NCBI GenBank assembly: GCA_937920455.1 | Contig: CALETX010000310.1 | Location: forward strand, 1-6,079 | Source of the DNA: an uncultured bacterium | GTDB taxonomy: Bacteria > Verrucomicrobiota > Kiritimatiellia > UBA8416 > CALETX01 | DNA length: 6,079 nucleotides | Reading direction: 5' to 3' | In this document: positions 1 to 6,079 of the stretch, piece after piece | How the letters are laid out: each line of letters starts with the position of its first letter | Numbering within the stretch: position 1 is the stretch's first letter | Position numbers and translations under genes: made by a program | Notes under the pieces: model-generated | The model's input: only the letters and a program-made list of their open reading frames with translations | Told to the model about the DNA's origin: nothing | Database searches by the model: none

Positions 1-2302
1 CCTCAAGAACGGCGGAGGATGGTTCCCACTCGGCGCGCAGACTGATGCTGCCATCGGAGATGTCTGTATATCCGGAATGTATGAGTCCGGCAGCCGGAAT
101 GAAGACTGATCGGTCCGTAGGAGGAAGGTCCCATTTGCGGCACGAAAGGAGCGCGGAATCAAGATCAACCGAGCCATTCTCAAGCGTGACGACCGTTTCG
201 GCTTCAATATAGTCGGAGCAACCCCAGGTGAGCGATACCCATGTCCAATCGTCGCTTTCCACCCGACAAGAAGCACTATGCGATGGTTGCCCGTCGCTTC
301 GCAATGTTGCTCGTATTGTGCCGTTGCCTCTGGTTCGCACCAGCAAGGCTGTTTCCTGAACGCAGGGGTAGCGATATGTCGGAATGACAACATTTGCATT
401 CGTATTGTCCAGTCTGACGAAGCATCCGCCAGACGCCGACTCATCTATCATTGCCGCCAGGCCGGGTGGTGGATGCGACTCGAATTCGTGCACAGATGTT
501 GGCGCAATTACCGGCCAGTCTGGAGGTTGCGGATGCTCGGCGACAGGCTGAGTCTGAATTCGAAACGACCATATTGGGCCGGATTGGCAAAGCAGTTTCA
601 GGCGCGGATTGGCCAGGAGGCCGGAAAGCGTCAGACCGCCAGAAAAAGGGCTGATTTTTTTTTGGAAGAGGTCTTCGTGGAAAACAATCCATGAGATTCC
701 TCGGGACGACAGCCAGTCCAATTGCGAGTCGGAGAGAACACCGCGATTTGCAGAACGGAGCGGCTCATAAACCTTTTCCCTGTATCCGGCGGGCGGCGCA
801 GGGCTGTAGCCATTCACGAGACGGATTCTATATAGCGAAGCATAGTGTAGATACGGCGAGCTCCAGGTGGATGTGCCAGGCCAGATGGGCACCACAAGAG
901 CGCGCGGGATTGTCTCGCGGTCTGCTGCGTCATTTGCGACTGCCAGATAAGCGGGCTCTTCGTCCACAACCAGCGATATTGTGGGGCGGACGACGATGCT
1001 GAATTCTGCCAGGAGGGCAGCGGAGGTCAGTAACGGGAAGGCGAAACGCCATCTGTAAGAGGAACGCAGGACGCTGAAGTGTGCTGTTGCAATGGCAAAG
1101 GCAAGAGCGAGGAGGGTGGGCATTAGGGCGAAAATCTTAGCTGGCTGGCGGACGTGTGATATGGGCCTGATGACGTGTCGGGCGATTCGGAAAACAAGTC
1201 CTTGACCAGGGCCGCGCATACCCGATGCCATGACAGCCGCCAGGATAACAGTGCCGCCAATAAGCAAGAGGGCTGTGCCGGCCGGAAAGAATCTGCGATC
1301 GCGTGCCATGCGCCAAAGGGCGAAGGCAAACGCAGCGGTCAGTATTGTTGTGCAACCCCAACCGATATAAATGTGAGATTTAACACCCGCTTCGCCTAAG
1401 CCAAGGATTCCTTCCAAGGGGTGGGAAAAGAGAAGTACTTCTCGGATTGGCCATTGCGACGGCAACAGGGAGACGCTTTGGTCAACATGCCGGACGAAAT
1501 AATAAGATGCGGCGATGGCCGCGGCAGGCAATGACGCCACTGCGACTGAGCGCCAAAAAGATTTGAGGTCTGAAAAGGGGAACGCTTCAGCGTGCATCAT
1601 GCCCAGGAGAGCCCACAGAGGCATCGAGAGAACTCCAAACATGAAAGTTGCCTTGTCGGTCCACGAAGCCATGACAAATGCAAATGCGGCAAGCAAACCG
1701 GCCGACCATTTCCTGACGGCGAACGTATCGAATGTGCTGATTGCTATTAGAGGCACCCATGCCATGGCAAGCCCTGTAGGGCTTCCGCCGAGCATAGATA
1801 TCCAGCGATACGGGAAGGCAATATGCAGAATCGTTGCCGGAACTATAATTTCCCACCTGTCGGTGAATCTTCTGCAGAGATTTATCATTGCGGCGGCAGA
1901 AAGCCAGAGACCAAGAAACTGTACCGCATTCCAGCCTAACGCCCTGCCCCCCAACCATCCGACAATCGAGTAAACAAGGGAAAAAGGAACGTAATACGAG
2001 TCGATATCCCGCCTTGCTTCGTCGTTGCCGTCATTGAACTCGTATAGATTATAGAATAATGGTGTATTCCCTGCTACCATGTCGCCAGCCAGCCAAAAGT
2101 GATATAGGAGCTGAAGAGGGTCGCCTGGTATCATGGTCCTGACAGCGCCTTTTTCTACATTGTGCGCAGAGATGGCGATGCCGTGCTTTGCGTATTTGGG
2201 AATGGGCCATCCGATCACTATCCATACAATACCGGCAAGGACCAGTGGGAGAAGGAACCTGACGAGGTCTTCGGCGAAGGAATATTGGATGTTTCGGTTC
2301 AC
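1..2302 (-). CDS. GT-C/YfhO-like polytopic membrane protein with extracytoplasmic carbohydrate-binding-like tail (C-terminus cut by window edge)
   Basis: Reading the minus strand from the GTG at 2302 gives 767 codons without a stop, running off the left edge. Residues 13-31 form a first transmembrane helix. A predicted external loop (about 32-104) follows, with G60-D61-P62 and a PLFYN motif (81-85). About ten further hydrophobic segments lie between 105 and 437. An R-Q-P-A-K motif (385-389) before a helix, an NGYSP motif (497-501) and a 'LDWLSSRGISWIVFHED' stretch (528-544) are the kind of landmarks seen in large bacterial families of predicted GT-C glycosyltransferases and YfhO-like proteins that use polyprenyl-phosphate sugars. 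From about 600 the chain is soluble and beta-rich; residues 620-722 resemble a CBM6/35-type jelly roll, and a second module may begin near 733. The start is set by the GTGA overlap with the upstream pyruvyl transferase gene and by the need to include helix 1; no Shine-Dalgarno is visible, fitting coupled translation. A nine-A run (positions 655-663) lies in codons 547-550 without breaking the frame. The family call is from motif style only; sugar donor and acceptor are unknown. Confidence 0.85.
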   Translation of the reverse strand, partial: MNRNIQYSFAEDLVRFLLPLVLAGIVWIVIGWPIPKYAKHGIAISAHNVEKGAVRTMIPGDPLQLLYHFWLAGDMVAGNTPLFYNLYEFNDGNDEARRDIDSYYVPFSLVYSIVGWLGGRALGWNAVQFLGLWLSAAAMINLCRRFTDRWEIIVPATILHIAFPYRWISMLGGSPTGLAMAWVPLIAISTFDTFAVRKWSAGLLAAFAFVMASWTDKATFMFGVLSMPLWALLGMMHAEAFPFSDLKSFWRSVAVASLPAAAIAASYYFVRHVDQSVSLLPSQWPIREVLLFSHPLEGILGLGEAGVKSHIYIGWGCTTILTAAFAFALWRMARDRRFFPAGTALLLIGGTVILAAVMASGMRGPGQGLVFRIARHVIRPISHVRQPAKIFALMPTLLALAFAIATAHFSVLRSSYRWRFAFPLLTSAALLAEFSIVVRPTISLVVDEEPAYLAVANDAADRETIPRALVVPIWPGTSTWSSPYLHYASLYRIRLVNGYSPAPPAGYREKVYEPLRSANRGVLSDSQLDWLSSRGISWIVFHEDLFQKKISPFSGGLTLSGLLANPRLKLLCQSGPIWSFRIQTQPVAEHPQPPDWPVIAPTSVHEFESHPPPGLAAMIDESASGGCFVRLDNTNANVVIPTYRYPCVQETALLVRTRGNGTIRATLRSDGQPSHSASCRVESDDWTWVSLTWGCSDYIEAETVVTLENGSVDLDSALLSCRKWDLPPTDRSVFIPAAGLIHSGYTDISDGSISLRAEWEPSSAVLE
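2299..2302 (-). promoter_or_regulatory. GTGA stop/start overlap (translational coupling)
   Basis: On the minus strand the TGA stop of the pyruvyl transferase gene (2301-2299) overlaps the GTG start of the membrane protein gene (2302-2300). The bases just upstream of the GTG contain no purine-rich Shine-Dalgarno, so re-initiation by ribosomes finishing the first gene is the likely mode of translation. This junction decides the start of the downstream gene. Confidence 0.75.
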
Positions 2303-3522
2303 GAATCGGATGGGTTGGCGTTTTGGAATAAAGCGTCAATATCATCGCCGCGATCAAGCGCGGCCACTACCCGGGCGGCGGCGAGAGCTTTTGTTTTCAG
2401 GCGTGGTATGCGATTCTGCAGATGAGCACGCAAGTCGGCCTTTCGGGCCCAGCCGCGCAAGATGTGCTGGGCGACGCTATGTTCAGAGAAATCTTCGAAA
2501 CCCATGCTGAACTCACGGAGTCCCAGAGTGGAGTAGTAATGATGCACTTTAGGCTGATAAGCAAGGCCGATTATGGGCGTCAGTTCCGATGACGCCATGA
2601 TCATGGCATGGAGTCTCATGCCGAAGAGCATAGTCATGCGTCGCAATATGCCCTTTATCTGCAGGTGATTGAGATGGACGTTGCTGATCAAAATGGGTTT
2701 CAGGCGGCGGTCGAGGCGGGAAATGAGTTCCTTTGATATCGGGACATCAGCATGCTGCGTGGTGATGACTGCGACTTGGCTTACGATTTCATTAAGGGCG
2801 CGATTCGCGCCGGCTGCGTATATTGCCAGGAACTTCTCCCGTCCAAGCCGCGGAGCATTGGCATGTGCCCATGTGTCAATGTAGTGGTTGATATTGAGGG
2901 CAAGTATTTCTTTTTCTGGATCAAGTCCGGCCTGGCGGAGCAAAATCAGCACGCTTTCGTCGGGAACCGACGGAGCGTTCAGCGCGGCGTCGGCGCCGAG
3001 AAGTATGCGCGGATTGGTAACGCCGATGTCTTTGAGAATAGCGAGGGAATCCTCGTCACGGACCGTTATAAAGTCCATCATATTGGAAAGGTCGCGAAGC
3101 ATACGGCATCCGGCGGATGTGGTGACTGGTCCGGCCCCGACATTGTAAAATCCCATACGCCGGCCCATTTTTTTTGCAATGGGCAGAAAGAGATAGAGGG
3201 TGGACATGAAGTTGAAGAGGGGGTTGAAAAGCGAGCGATCGAAGAGGATGGCGTCAAAGACAAGAGTGATATCGGTGCCTCGGATCGAGTTCCAGGTTGG
3301 AAGGCCCAGCATTTTGACAGAAAGGTTCCAAGGGAGAGTTGGAACGGGGGTTATGTTATCCGTGTAGTGATTCCTGATATACGATGGGCGAATTGTCGGT
3401 ACCTCGTAATGCAGGCGTCTCCCGCAGGCAGCGTCCACCGAGGCAGCAATGGCTGCGATCAGGGCTGCATCACCTGAGTTGCGTCCTGAGGAAGATCCCA
3501 AAAGTGTTGCGGAACGTAACAT
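2299..3522 (-). CDS. Polysaccharide pyruvyl transferase family protein (CsaB/WcaK-like)
   Basis: A complete 407-residue protein that fits the polysaccharide pyruvyl transferase family (PF04230). Known members move a pyruvyl group from phosphoenolpyruvate onto a sugar hydroxyl of a cell-wall or exopolysaccharide glycan, usually on the cytoplasmic side. Visible landmarks are an N-terminal glycine-rich segment with N15-S-G-D18 (9-20), a central GAGP motif (129-132) followed by V-R-D-E-D-S (154-159) and a D-I-G-V segment (165-168), and the family hallmark GMRLHAMIMA (301-310) followed by Y322-Q-P-K-V. There is no signal peptide. The ATG at 3522 is chosen because the glycine-rich motif begins directly after it and an in-frame TAG lies five codons upstream; the Shine-Dalgarno is poor (GAGAG abuts the ATG). 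It is first in a two-gene minus-strand unit and overlaps the membrane protein gene by four bases. An eight-A run (3168-3175) encodes K117-K118. Family assignment is firm; the sugar substrate, and whether the donor is pyruvate, cannot be told from sequence. Confidence 0.9.
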   Translation of the reverse strand: MLRSATLLGSSSGRNSGDAALIAAIAASVDAACGRRLHYEVPTIRPSYIRNHYTDNITPVPTLPWNLSVKMLGLPTWNSIRGTDITLVFDAILFDRSLFNPLFNFMSTLYLFLPIAKKMGRRMGFYNVGAGPVTTSAGCRMLRDLSNMMDFITVRDEDSLAILKDIGVTNPRILLGADAALNAPSVPDESVLILLRQAGLDPEKEILALNINHYIDTWAHANAPRLGREKFLAIYAAGANRALNEIVSQVAVITTQHADVPISKELISRLDRRLKPILISNVHLNHLQIKGILRRMTMLFGMRLHAMIMASSELTPIIGLAYQPKVHHYYSTLGLREFSMGFEDFSEHSVAQHILRGWARKADLRAHLQNRIPRLKTKALAAARVVAALDRGDDIDALFQNANPSDS

Positions 3523-3589
3523 CTCTCGGATAAGCTAAACATTTCACGGAATCGGGCAAGCGTTTAACATAACTACGGTGGATTCTTTT
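3523..3589. promoter_or_regulatory. Divergent intergenic region, presumed bidirectional promoter
   Basis: Only 67 bases separate the minus-strand pyruvyl transferase start from the chosen plus-strand start, so promoters for both directions must lie here or reach into the coding ends. A weak plus-strand candidate is TTTCAC (3542-3547), then 17 bases, then TAACAT (3565-3570), which matches the -10 consensus at four of six bases but has a poor -35. No convincing sigma-70 pair was found for the minus strand. The region is more AT-rich than the flanking genes. GGTGGA (3577-3582) is the probable ribosome-binding site for the ATG at 3590. Confidence 0.4.
3529..3573. repeat. Imperfect inverted repeat between the divergent genes
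   Basis: The left arm GATAAGCTAAAC (3529-3540) and right arm GTTTAACATAAC (3562-3573) match as inverted copies at 9 of 12 positions, with a 21-base spacer. Arm centres are 33 bases apart, about three helical turns. This could be an operator for a dimeric regulator, or simply mirrored AT-rich promoter elements for the two genes. Chance similarity is possible because the arms are AT-rich. Confidence 0.35.
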
Positions 3590-5692
3590 ATGGCAGACAA
3601 TTCCAAAGGCAGCGGGGGAACGGGCGCAAGAGTTTTGTACTGGGTGTTCAGTCTTGGCGTCACGGTGGGAATCTTCACATATTTACTGCGAAATGTTTCG
3701 CTTGGTGACGTATGGGACCTGATAAAAGGCATAAACAAGGCTGGTGTTGCCTGTTTTCTGGTTCTTTCATTCGCGATGAGTTTTTTCAGGTTATGGCGTT
3801 ACAAAGTTATGCTTCGTCTGTGGGGTTACGCCCCTCCCTCGGTTGCTTTGTTCCTGGTGGTTCTGGTCCGGAATTTTTTTTCAGACCTTTTGCCGGCCAG
3901 GCTCGGCACGCTTGTTTACATTTATCTGGTGAACACCAGACTTGGCGTGCCATTTGAAGCTGCGGCAGCAAGTTTCTCCTTGGCTTTTATCTTCGACATG
4001 ATTGCCATCGCGCCCTTGATACTCGCCGCCGTTCTCGCCGCTGGCTTGGGGACAGGGTTGCCGCCAGGCGCGCTGCTGGTTGGCGCCGGGGGGCTGTGCG
4101 CTGTGTCGGTTGCGGTGCTTTACGCTTTGCCTTTTCTGTTCCGTATCTCAGGAACTATTGGCCGGAAGCTCAAGCTGTTCGGACAAACGCGAACCGAAAG
4201 GCTGGTGGCGAGGCTTGAGGGAGTGGGTCGAGAGATAGACGCAGCCAGAAAACAAGGCGTCTATGGCCGTCTCCTGTTATTGTCTGTCCTCGTTAGGGTA
4301 GGAAAGTATGCGTCGTTGTATGTATTACTTTATGCGCTGCTTGCGCCGATGGGATATGGGCTGCGGGATCTTCCCGTGTCAAAGGTTTTTCTGGGGATGT
4401 GCGCCGCGGAGGTTGCCGCGAGCACTCCAATTTCAGGGATTGCCGGATTTGGTGTTTATGAGGGCACGTGGAGCCTGGTTTTCAGGCTTTTGGGATTTCC
4501 CGAGGAAATGGCCAATCTGACCAGCATTTCGCATCATCTCTTTACCCAGGTTTACGGCTACGGGCTGGGAGCTTTGGCGCTGCTGGCGCTGCTCCTGCCG
4601 TTTTTCAAGGTCACAGATGCGCGAAAGGCTGAGTTGTTTCCTGGACCCGGACCCTTTAGATTCTACGGTGCCGTTGCATCCGCTATCGCTGCGTTTGCGC
4701 TTCTCATAGCAGGGATTTCAGTACTGGGCGCGGGCAGCGAGAGATGGCAAAGAGCTGCGTGCCATGCCGATGTTCCCAGCAGAGATGAGGAAGACGCTAG
4801 AAGAGAGTTTGACGCAGTTTTCCCAGGTCGTGTGCTTTTTGACTCTAACCGGAGTGGCACTTTCGGCATTTTTTCGATGTGCGCTGACGGTTCGGACGTC
4901 AGACCGATAGCGGACAGCCATTTGCACGAGATGTATCCGGACCCTTCGCCTGATGGAAGACTGATAGTTTTCGCGCGAACCGCGGTCCTGTCGAAAAAAG
5001 CGCCTGCTGAGATATGGATATGCGACAGAAATGGAGGCAACAGTCGAAAACTTGCCGATAATGGCACGTTTCCGACGTTCTCGGGAGATGGCCGACTTGT
5101 CTATTTCGAGCGTGAGCGACGGAAACTGATGGCCGTCAATGTGGATGGCTCGCGCGAACGCGAAATTTTCCCTACCACTAGTGAAGATTGGGGAGATTAC
5201 CAGATTGTGAAGCCGCGTGTGACGGCAGACGGCAGCAAGGTCGTTTTTATTTCAGACCGACGTGGCAGATGGAACCTGTGGTGGGCGGATTTGCGGTCCG
5301 GCAAGGCGTTCCATGTTTCGGACGGATGCGAGGGGGGCTGGTTCTGCGACGGGCGAAGAATTGTCTGGATCAAGGACAAGGGTGTCCGTGAAAGAACTGG
5401 AATTTTTGAATATGATCTGCAGGATGGCCGGATTTCGGAAATCCATGACGGCGACGCCCCGCGCGGCCATGAATATTTCCCAACGCTTGCCGCTGAGGAC
5501 GCTTTTCTGCTGTGGAGCGCATGTCGTCCAGGAGAGCACGATCATCTTGCTGCTGGCTCAAACTATCAGATTTATGGCAAGAGACTTCCTGATGGCAAAG
5601 CGGTGCGTATCACATTTGACGCTTTCAACAATCGGTGGCCAAAGCTGCTCAAAGACGTTCCACCGGGCAGTAGCGGTTCATCAACGCCGTAG
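3590..5692 (+). CDS. UPF0104/LPG_synthase_TM flippase-like membrane domain fused to an extracytoplasmic six-bladed TolB-like propeller
   Basis: Counting from the ATG at 3590 the protein has 700 residues. Residues 15-340 form about eight transmembrane segments and fit the LPG_synthase_TM/UPF0104 family (PF03706; YbhN, AglD and the MprF flippase part). The family-type motifs are an RLWRYKVMLRLWG stretch (67-79), LLPARLGTLVYIY (100-112), TPISGIAGFGVYEG (279-292) and a late SHHLF helix start (314-318). A ninth helix (about 357-381) then places the C-terminus outside the cytoplasm. Residues 413-687 contain six PD40/TolB-like repeats (about 413-456, 457-501, 502-548, 549-588, 589-637, 638-687). Each carries a 'hydrophobic-x-x-D/N-G-x-x-R-x-hydrophobic' strand turn, and several end in SPDG-like loops (SPDG 453-456, SGDG 498-501, TADG 545-548). 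Known UPF0104 proteins move or modify lipid head groups; TolB-type propellers bind proteins or ligands. The ATG is preferred because GGTGGA precedes it by seven bases; an in-frame GTG at 3578 would add four residues but has no Shine-Dalgarno. It diverges from the pyruvyl transferase operon. An eight-T run (3874-3881) lies in frame. The domain calls are strong; the substrate is unknown. Confidence 0.88.
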   Translation: MADNSKGSGGTGARVLYWVFSLGVTVGIFTYLLRNVSLGDVWDLIKGINKAGVACFLVLSFAMSFFRLWRYKVMLRLWGYAPPSVALFLVVLVRNFFSDLLPARLGTLVYIYLVNTRLGVPFEAAAASFSLAFIFDMIAIAPLILAAVLAAGLGTGLPPGALLVGAGGLCAVSVAVLYALPFLFRISGTIGRKLKLFGQTRTERLVARLEGVGREIDAARKQGVYGRLLLLSVLVRVGKYASLYVLLYALLAPMGYGLRDLPVSKVFLGMCAAEVAASTPISGIAGFGVYEGTWSLVFRLLGFPEEMANLTSISHHLFTQVYGYGLGALALLALLLPFFKVTDARKAELFPGPGPFRFYGAVASAIAAFALLIAGISVLGAGSERWQRAACHADVPSRDEEDARREFDAVFPGRVLFDSNRSGTFGIFSMCADGSDVRPIADSHLHEMYPDPSPDGRLIVFARTAVLSKKAPAEIWICDRNGGNSRKLADNGTFPTFSGDGRLVYFERERRKLMAVNVDGSREREIFPTTSEDWGDYQIVKPRVTADGSKVVFISDRRGRWNLWWADLRSGKAFHVSDGCEGGWFCDGRRIVWIKDKGVRERTGIFEYDLQDGRISEIHDGDAPRGHEYFPTLAAEDAFLLWSACRPGEHDHLAAGSNYQIYGKRLPDGKAVRITFDAFNNRWPKLLKDVPPGSSGSSTP

Positions 5693-5711: not shown

Positions 5712-5744
5712 ATGCGCGTGGCTGAAGATTCAATCTCAGCGCAT
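5712..5744. terminator. Stem-loop in the convergent gap, possible bidirectional terminator
   Basis: Positions 5721-5740 fold as GCTG, a bulged A, AGAT, loop TCA, ATCT, CAGC; an outer ATGC (5712-5715) can pair with GCAT (5741-5744) across an internal bulge. It sits between the plus-strand stop at 5692 and the end of the minus-strand lipoprotein gene, whose stop codon falls inside the stem. On the minus strand a short CATTTTCCC stretch follows about 12 bases after the stem; neither side has a strong U-tract, so intrinsic termination is only possible, not clear. Confidence 0.35.
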
Positions 5745-6079
5745 AAGATAGATCGTTTGTTCTGGCGAATCCCTGCCCAAATGCGGATCGAACAGGTAGT
5801 CTCTTATCCTCACGTAATGTGAGGAAACTTCGCCGTAGGATGTCCATCTTTCACCAGTGGCGGAATCCGTCAGGGAAATCCAGCCGTCTGAAGTGATAGT
5901 GCCGGTGAAATTTTGCCCCTCTCCGACAAGGGATGTCTCAATGACAAGATTGCTGCCAACCTGGGTTATATGAGCGGTCAAGTCTACGTGGCGGCCTGGG
6001 CGTTCATAATATCCGGTCCAATCTCCCCTCAGATCGGCATAAACAGGGTCTGGTCCGTTATCGTCTTCACATCCCGAAA
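5736..6079 (-). CDS. Small predicted lipoprotein, N-terminus cut by window edge
   Basis: Minus-strand frame open from the right edge to a TGA at 5738-5736, 113 residues visible. The first complete codons read S-G-C-E-D-D-N-G. S-G-C followed by acidic residues is the end of a lipobox, and the split codon before it ends in TT, so it would encode L, I, V or F, three of which fit the lipobox -3 position. Mature protein from the cysteine would be 111 residues. The body is beta-rich: GDWTGYY (18-24 of the visible part), then alternating strands with G-x-I-x-x-D-G and TDSATGERW turns, resembling a small lipocalin-like or beta-barrel domain. The residue after the cysteine is Glu, not Asp, compatible with outer-membrane sorting under the E. 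coli +2 rule. The signal peptide and start lie beyond the window. Function is not recognisable. An internal TTG at 5981 could be mistaken for the start but would delete the lipobox and the first strand. It is convergent with the UPF0104-propeller gene. Confidence 0.75.
   Translation of the reverse strand, partial: SGCEDDNGPDPVYADLRGDWTGYYERPGRHVDLTAHITQVGSNLVIETSLVGEGQNFTGTITSDGWISLTDSATGERWTSYGEVSSHYVRIRDYLFDPHLGRDSPEQTIYLMR

Follow-up and report, generated by a model that had tools for sequence, protein, structure and literature searches.

A widespread fusion of a flippase-like membrane domain with a TolB-like propeller predicted to lie outside the inner membrane

Introduction

A stretch of 6,079 nucleotides from an uncultured bacterium of the class Kiritimatiellia (contig CALETX010000310.1 of assembly GCA_937920455.1; the whole stretch is hereafter called the window) carries a gene in which a flippase-like membrane domain (PF03706, or UPF0104) is joined to a six-bladed TolB-like propeller. 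The fusion is confirmed in the window gene and, far from being an isolated case, characterises a widespread family. It is also one arrangement of a two-part unit that occurs split between two genes and with a second type of propeller; both of these findings go beyond a preliminary description that had been made from the window's letters. PF03706 proteins are widespread, and the database label 'flippase-like domain-containing protein' hides the two-part unit described here. A conserved partner outside the membrane offers a handle on the cargo of these proteins and on what would give a passive scramblase direction, as the propeller can be made soluble and its ligand could name the cargo.

Results

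Domains of the fusion protein

The preliminary description had proposed one continuous frame at 3590..5692, and a single unbroken reading frame does run along the + strand from 3578 (GTG) or 3590 (ATG) to 5692. The ATG is the likelier start because a GGTGGA motif precedes it at a distance of 7 nucleotides (Table 1). Residue numbers in the Pfam scan count from the GTG and equal the ATG-based numbers plus 4. The PF03706 (LPG_synthase_TM) profile matched the N-terminal part at 97 bits against a cut-off of 33.4, over profile positions 1-296 of 302. The limits first suggested for this domain (about 15-340) were right within a few residues, as were those of the helix and the propeller. The predicted model of the domain matches the fold of the first transmembrane domain (TMD1) of MprF, with eight helices and two hairpin pairs, here at residues 84-100/103-118 and 263-278/286-300. 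Five charged residues of the helices (R70, D99, R236, K239 and E274) are invariant across the 57 rows of an alignment, in members with a fused propeller and in members without one. A PDB sequence search with a nine-row membrane profile gave no match but ABCG2 (E 0.065-0.067), which was taken as chance. An equation of E291-H315 with the MprF pair E295-R319 (Pa) or E280-R304 (Rt) was dropped, as no profile alignment was obtained and only the spacing of 24 is common to them.

An AlphaFold2 model of all 700 amino acids, built on 49 sequences, reached a mean predicted local distance difference test score (pLDDT) of 89.8 and a predicted template modelling score (pTM) of 0.84. The extra helix placed earlier at about 357-381 appears in it as a helix of residues 355-387, and the six propeller repeats placed at about 413-687 are borne out by a PF07676 (PD40) match of 50.6 bits (cut-off 20.9) and by six modelled blades, in which the C-terminal strand 681-688 joins the first three strands and so closes the ring. 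The division of strands into blades, and the assignment of strands and loops, were made by us from the model's strand list. TolB is the closest fold to the propeller model, its listed PDB entries including complexes with Pal and colicin peptides; the Foldseek matches listed also include 3pe7, an oligogalacturonate lyase with manganese. Membership of either family was rejected on score, the propeller reaching 64.2 bits with the TolB equivalog TIGR02800 (cut-off 343.15) and 12.5 bits with the oligogalacturonate lyase family PF14583 (cut-off 30).

In the 49-row alignment mean conservation was 0.70 in the channel-lining strand A versus 0.44 in strand D, and 0.52 in the DA and BC loops versus 0.42 in the AB and CD loops (one-sided p 0.001). 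Among the conserved propeller residues His, Arg, Glu and Trp are frequent; a polar ligand site would have such a composition, which is not proof of one.

Fused, split and exchanged propellers

A protein search gave 268 homologues among 7995 scored candidates. Both PF03706 and PF07676 are precomputed for 118 of the 120 homologues listed (a set that includes P0001, the window's own protein), the exceptions being P0116 and P0119; a fusion by chance or by faulty assembly was therefore rejected. PF26549 and PF26550 are precomputed for many of the listed homologues, and neither is among the matches of our Pfam scan. A scan of genome contigs yielded 52 loci under titles that include Kiritimatiellae, Lentisphaerae, Verrucomicrobia, Desulfobulbaceae, Oligoflexia and Bdellovibrionales, among others.

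Profiling of six-frame translations of 73 sequences (the window, L003-L054 and L086-L105; six pairs among them are duplicates) revealed a common membrane domain that occurs with the propeller of the window (type A), with a second propeller (type B), or alone with an adjoining head-to-head type B gene. The two types are, judged by their profiles, distant relatives: the B profile scored 14-55 bits on A propellers versus 259-428 bits on the B proteins compared. The 57 non-duplicate rows comprise 16 fused to type A, 14 fused to type B, 17 split with type B, nine alone and one cut by a contig end. On a tree of these rows 14 changes of state are required, versus a shuffled mean of 30.3, and the propeller has likely been exchanged repeatedly; as the backbone of the tree is weakly supported, the number of such events is not settled, and two rows (L101 and L102) are near-copies. 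By eye, the membrane-only proteins of L021, L037 and L086 keep a ninth hydrophobic stretch with no propeller, which would fit loss of the propeller or its transfer to a separate gene.

Among 240 genomes of the window's class, 51 contain the membrane domain (E <= 1e-30). With type B called at >= 120 bits, type A at E <= 1e-30 and head-to-head pairs within 500 bp, 23 of these genomes have a type A and four a type B propeller downstream in the same direction, 15 have a head-to-head type B gene, and nine have none. All 27 same-direction cases are fusions, since the membrane and propeller matches lie in open frames of equal length. Six of the nine genomes in the last group were inspected (G097, G145 and G201 being left out), and in four of them (L122-L125) a weaker, A-like propeller is fused, at 40-103 bits; the membrane domain is paired with a propeller in at least 46 of the 51. 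By way of control, three of the best-scoring 150 PF03706 matches in the same genomes lie within 500 bp of a propeller, all of them type B beside a paralogous PF03706 gene. Ten of these 150 matches lie in frames of more than 600 amino acids, none of which matched either propeller profile (E 1e-3); eight have PF03706 at the C-terminal end and two have a C-terminal S41 peptidase. PF03706 proteins were found in 11 of 14 named control genomes. The two frames with S41 peptidase, L138:853-3363 (-) and L139:2292-4838 (+), join PF03706 to C-terminal PDZ and S41 peptidase domains, another fusion to a domain that would lie outside.

Type B propellers are found away from the membrane subfamily in 14 of 34 cases, three of which have a paralogous PF03706 gene next to them, head-to-head in L109 and L112 and in the same direction in L108; a type B gene of genome G119 is likewise head-to-head with a paralogous PF03706 gene. 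As paralogues too have head-to-head type B partners (Table 1), the pairing may reach beyond the window's subfamily. In the window's own genome a search for type B recovered nothing beyond the fused propeller, which cross-matched weakly; this says little because that genome is 64% complete.

Location of the propeller

The propeller of the fusion is predicted to lie outside the inner membrane, as the preliminary description had also placed it. Three lines support this prediction: the lysine- and arginine-rich (K+R) loop before helix 9, the export-type starts and lipoboxes of unfused propellers, and the MprF fold. The loop at 335-356 has a mean of 3.5 K+R versus 1.5 aspartates and glutamates (D+E), the loop at 255-262 a mean of 0.2 versus 1.1, and these charges agree with the positive-inside rule for an outside propeller. 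A PROSITE-like lipobox rule picked out 12 of 18 unfused type B proteins (a set that leaves out the unfused type B propellers of L106-L119); in a control set of 734 frames, which itself includes 13 unfused type B propellers, it picked out 41. By eye, a further three type B starts, those of L043, L100 and L101, are lipobox-like and those of L086, L088 and L098 are not, while among unfused type A propellers that of L045 has a signal-peptide-like start and those of L023, L034 and L039 have N-terminal hydrophobic stretches. Such export-type starts are evidence for an outside location that is independent of the loop charges.

Gene surroundings

Neighbouring genes were surveyed in 67 loci, with flanks of up to 10 kb (many shorter) and representatives scanned in place of every member. 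Polysaccharide pyruvyl transferases recur in 11 loci, a second PF03706 gene in 10, FrhB-like genes in eight, hexapeptide transferases and epimerases in seven each, and the type of the window's 767-residue membrane protein in six. Glycosyltransferases are present among the 65 scanned of 112 further neighbours, and GDSL-type genes lie near some loci. A general glycan cassette was rejected as a rule, the neighbours being mixed, so that glycan genes are the setting of part of the family.

The neighbours of the window recur in L088, and L086 has the same gene families farther from the unit. The 767-residue protein has no Pfam match and is related to genes in L004, L005, L086, L088 and L100; we take it to resemble a GT-C-type or YfhO-like protein. 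The small likely lipoprotein at the other end of the window has no Pfam match, and its relatives in L004, L086 and L088 have signal- and lipobox-like starts. The window's genome holds one other PF03706 match, on contig C25, and the gene beside it reads like an NAD-dependent epimerase. Near the other PF03706 gene of this genome lies a short gene, L001:2810-3325 (-), whose sequence resembles NusG-type antiterminators from surface-glycan clusters. In L030 a type B fusion gene is followed directly by a VTC-domain gene (L030:12198-12950).

Table 1. Features of the window and positions of paralogous head-to-head pairs
Feature	Position	Strand	Basis or remark
Multi-span membrane protein, 767 amino acids	2..2302	-	Runs off contig end; 4-base overlap with pyruvyl transferase; relatives in 6/67 loci
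Polysaccharide pyruvyl transferase (PF04230), divergent neighbour	2299..3522	-	Pfam; related genes in 11/67 loci
Gap between divergent fusion and pyruvyl-transferase genes, 67 bp	3523..3589	.	
GGTGGA, likely ribosome-binding site, 7 nucleotides ahead of ATG 3590	3577..3582	+	Read directly; function inferred
Fusion gene, 700 amino acids	3590..5692	+	GTG 3578 a possible alternative start
PF03706 membrane domain, residues 11-334; of its eight helix units two are hairpins	3620..4591	+	Pfam, predicted model
Ninth, linking transmembrane helix, residues 355-387	4652..4750	+	AlphaFold2 model
Short linker helix, residues 398-410	4781..4819	+	AlphaFold2 model
Six-bladed TolB-like propeller (type A), residues 413-688	4826..5653	+	Pfam, AlphaFold2 model, fold match
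Small likely lipoprotein, SGC start	5736..6077	-	N-terminus cut by contig end; relatives L004, L086, L088
Paralogous PF03706 with head-to-head type B	L088:5326-7310; L109:4907-6972; L112:4879-6954		Genomes G119, G004, G022

Discussion

The preliminary description is supported in part: both domains, their fusion and the outside placement stand, and its suggestion that the propeller senses, binds or gates delivery of a translocated lipid is carried forward here in a tentative form. We read the protein, with somewhat less than even confidence, as a lipid translocator that carries its own receptor outside the membrane and is made up of an MprF-type domain, a ninth helix and a six-bladed propeller predicted to lie outside. 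Through the PF03706 domain a lipid or lipid-linked glycan would reach the outer leaflet, where the propeller would bind the exposed head group; such binding outside could give direction to an otherwise passive scramblase, with the propeller drawing the equilibrium outward or handing the cargo on. The polysaccharide pyruvyl transferase encoded divergently beside the fusion gene makes a surface-glycan intermediate the probable cargo in the window. For the family as a whole we consider, just as tentatively, a two-part lipid-export unit in which an MprF-type scramblase has a dedicated outside TolB-like propeller (fused as type A or B, or encoded head-to-head as a lipoprotein), capture by the propeller would direct delivery, and exchange of the propeller would change the cargo. 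The exchange of types A and B fits such a modular receptor, as does the lipid anchor that the split form has where the fusion has its helix.

Several observations weigh against this reading. Lysine and arginine are also frequent in residues 387-412, just after helix 9 (3.0 K+R with 3.6 D+E), which makes the charge argument alone a weak one. The difference in conservation between the propeller faces comes mainly from the CD loops (0.37), the AB loops (0.49) being close to the DA loops (0.51). Profile comparison (hhalign) of the 57-row membrane alignment with six MprF-like N-terminal stretches, taken from genomes of the window's class in frames cut by the loci, gave no meaningful alignment, and the MprF gate residues are therefore not transferable. 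Lipid transport in vitro is reported for MprF, and for GpgF, another UPF0104 protein, it is predicted only (PMC12713373). The 180 close neighbours are mixed, with no Pfam family matching more than four members of either set, and a glycan cargo is thus not general. Nine of the 57 rows lack a propeller nearby; L120 and L121 (the contigs of L033 and L022) are among these nine and are also the two of the six inspected genomes without one. Finally, eleven unfused type B propellers (L106, L107, L110, L111, L113-L119) have no PF03706 gene by two profiles in the stretch fetched, some of them lying at contig ends.

The propeller could instead be an adaptor, as TolB is for Pal, that links the membrane domain to a protein or complex of the envelope, the membrane domain moving bulk lipid or serving envelope homeostasis. 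The closeness of the fold to TolB with its Pal and colicin peptide complexes, the lipoprotein-like appearance of unfused type B propellers and the mixed neighbours, which fit a general envelope role, speak for this possibility; we consider it unlikely, though worth keeping in view, since the equivalog score is far below its cut-off, no TolB N-terminal domain is among the Pfam matches, and no recurrent second protein was seen beside the unit in all settings. Rather unlikely, too, is an enzyme acting on the flipped head group, by cleaving, transferring or trimming a sugar or acyl group, as the MprF synthase acts on the inner side. One face of the propeller and its channel are indeed well supplied with conserved residues that are charged, His or aromatic, the lyase 3pe7 is among the Foldseek matches listed, GDSL-type genes occur near some loci, and two other PF03706 proteins of the class with a C-terminal S41 peptidase indicate that enzymes on this side occur; however, the lyase profile falls short of its cut-off, no catalytic family was recognised, and the conserved residues differ between types A and B. 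That the membrane domain is a mere anchor or sensor relay, no longer moving lipids, for a propeller that senses an outside ligand is improbable: unfused propellers make do with a hydrophobic or lipid anchor, so that anchoring is interchangeable, but a mere anchor would not need the charged helix residues that are invariant with or without a fused propeller.

Relation to known systems

UPF0104 proteins mostly stand alone or belong to two-domain proteins, AglD and MprF among them (PMC5898192), which agrees with the fusions to a GT2 glycosyltransferase and to a synthase that the preliminary description had named. The main text of that paper does not contain the word 'propeller', and among the matches listed in the open-licence literature we recognised no paper on a fusion of PF03706 or UPF0104 with a propeller, in line with the preliminary description, to which no such fusion was known; PMC12419801 concerns another superfamily. 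The analysis suggests that the pairing of an MprF-family domain with a propeller is a so far undescribed unit.

YbhN and GpgF are stand-alone UPF0104 members of the same membrane family, GpgF being predicted to flip a glycosylated phospholipid, and no propeller is mentioned in the passages of PMC12713373 on these proteins. TolB of the Tol-Pal system differs from the window protein, which is membrane-anchored and scores far from the TolB equivalog. In archaeal AglD, which acts in glycosylation, a PF03706 domain is likewise part of a composite protein (PMC5898192), but its glycosyltransferase is N-terminal and cytoplasmic; the window protein has a C-terminal propeller, predicted outside, and no GT2 domain among its Pfam matches. 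An MprF-related protein with an extracytoplasmic domain is known in LysX2 of Mycobacterium, as shown by PhoA/LacZ topology; that domain is synthase-like, and the protein has four predicted membrane segments (PMC8974105). A further comparison is with MprF, of which structure and activity have been described (PMC8131360, PMC11980842): both proteins have the flippase-domain fold of transmembrane helices 1-8 with two hairpins, joined to a soluble functional domain. The window protein, however, is without the second membrane domain (helices 9-14), having one further long helix before the propeller; synthase PF09924 is not among its Pfam matches; and whereas the soluble domain of MprF is a cytoplasmic transferase, that of the window protein is a propeller predicted to face outward.
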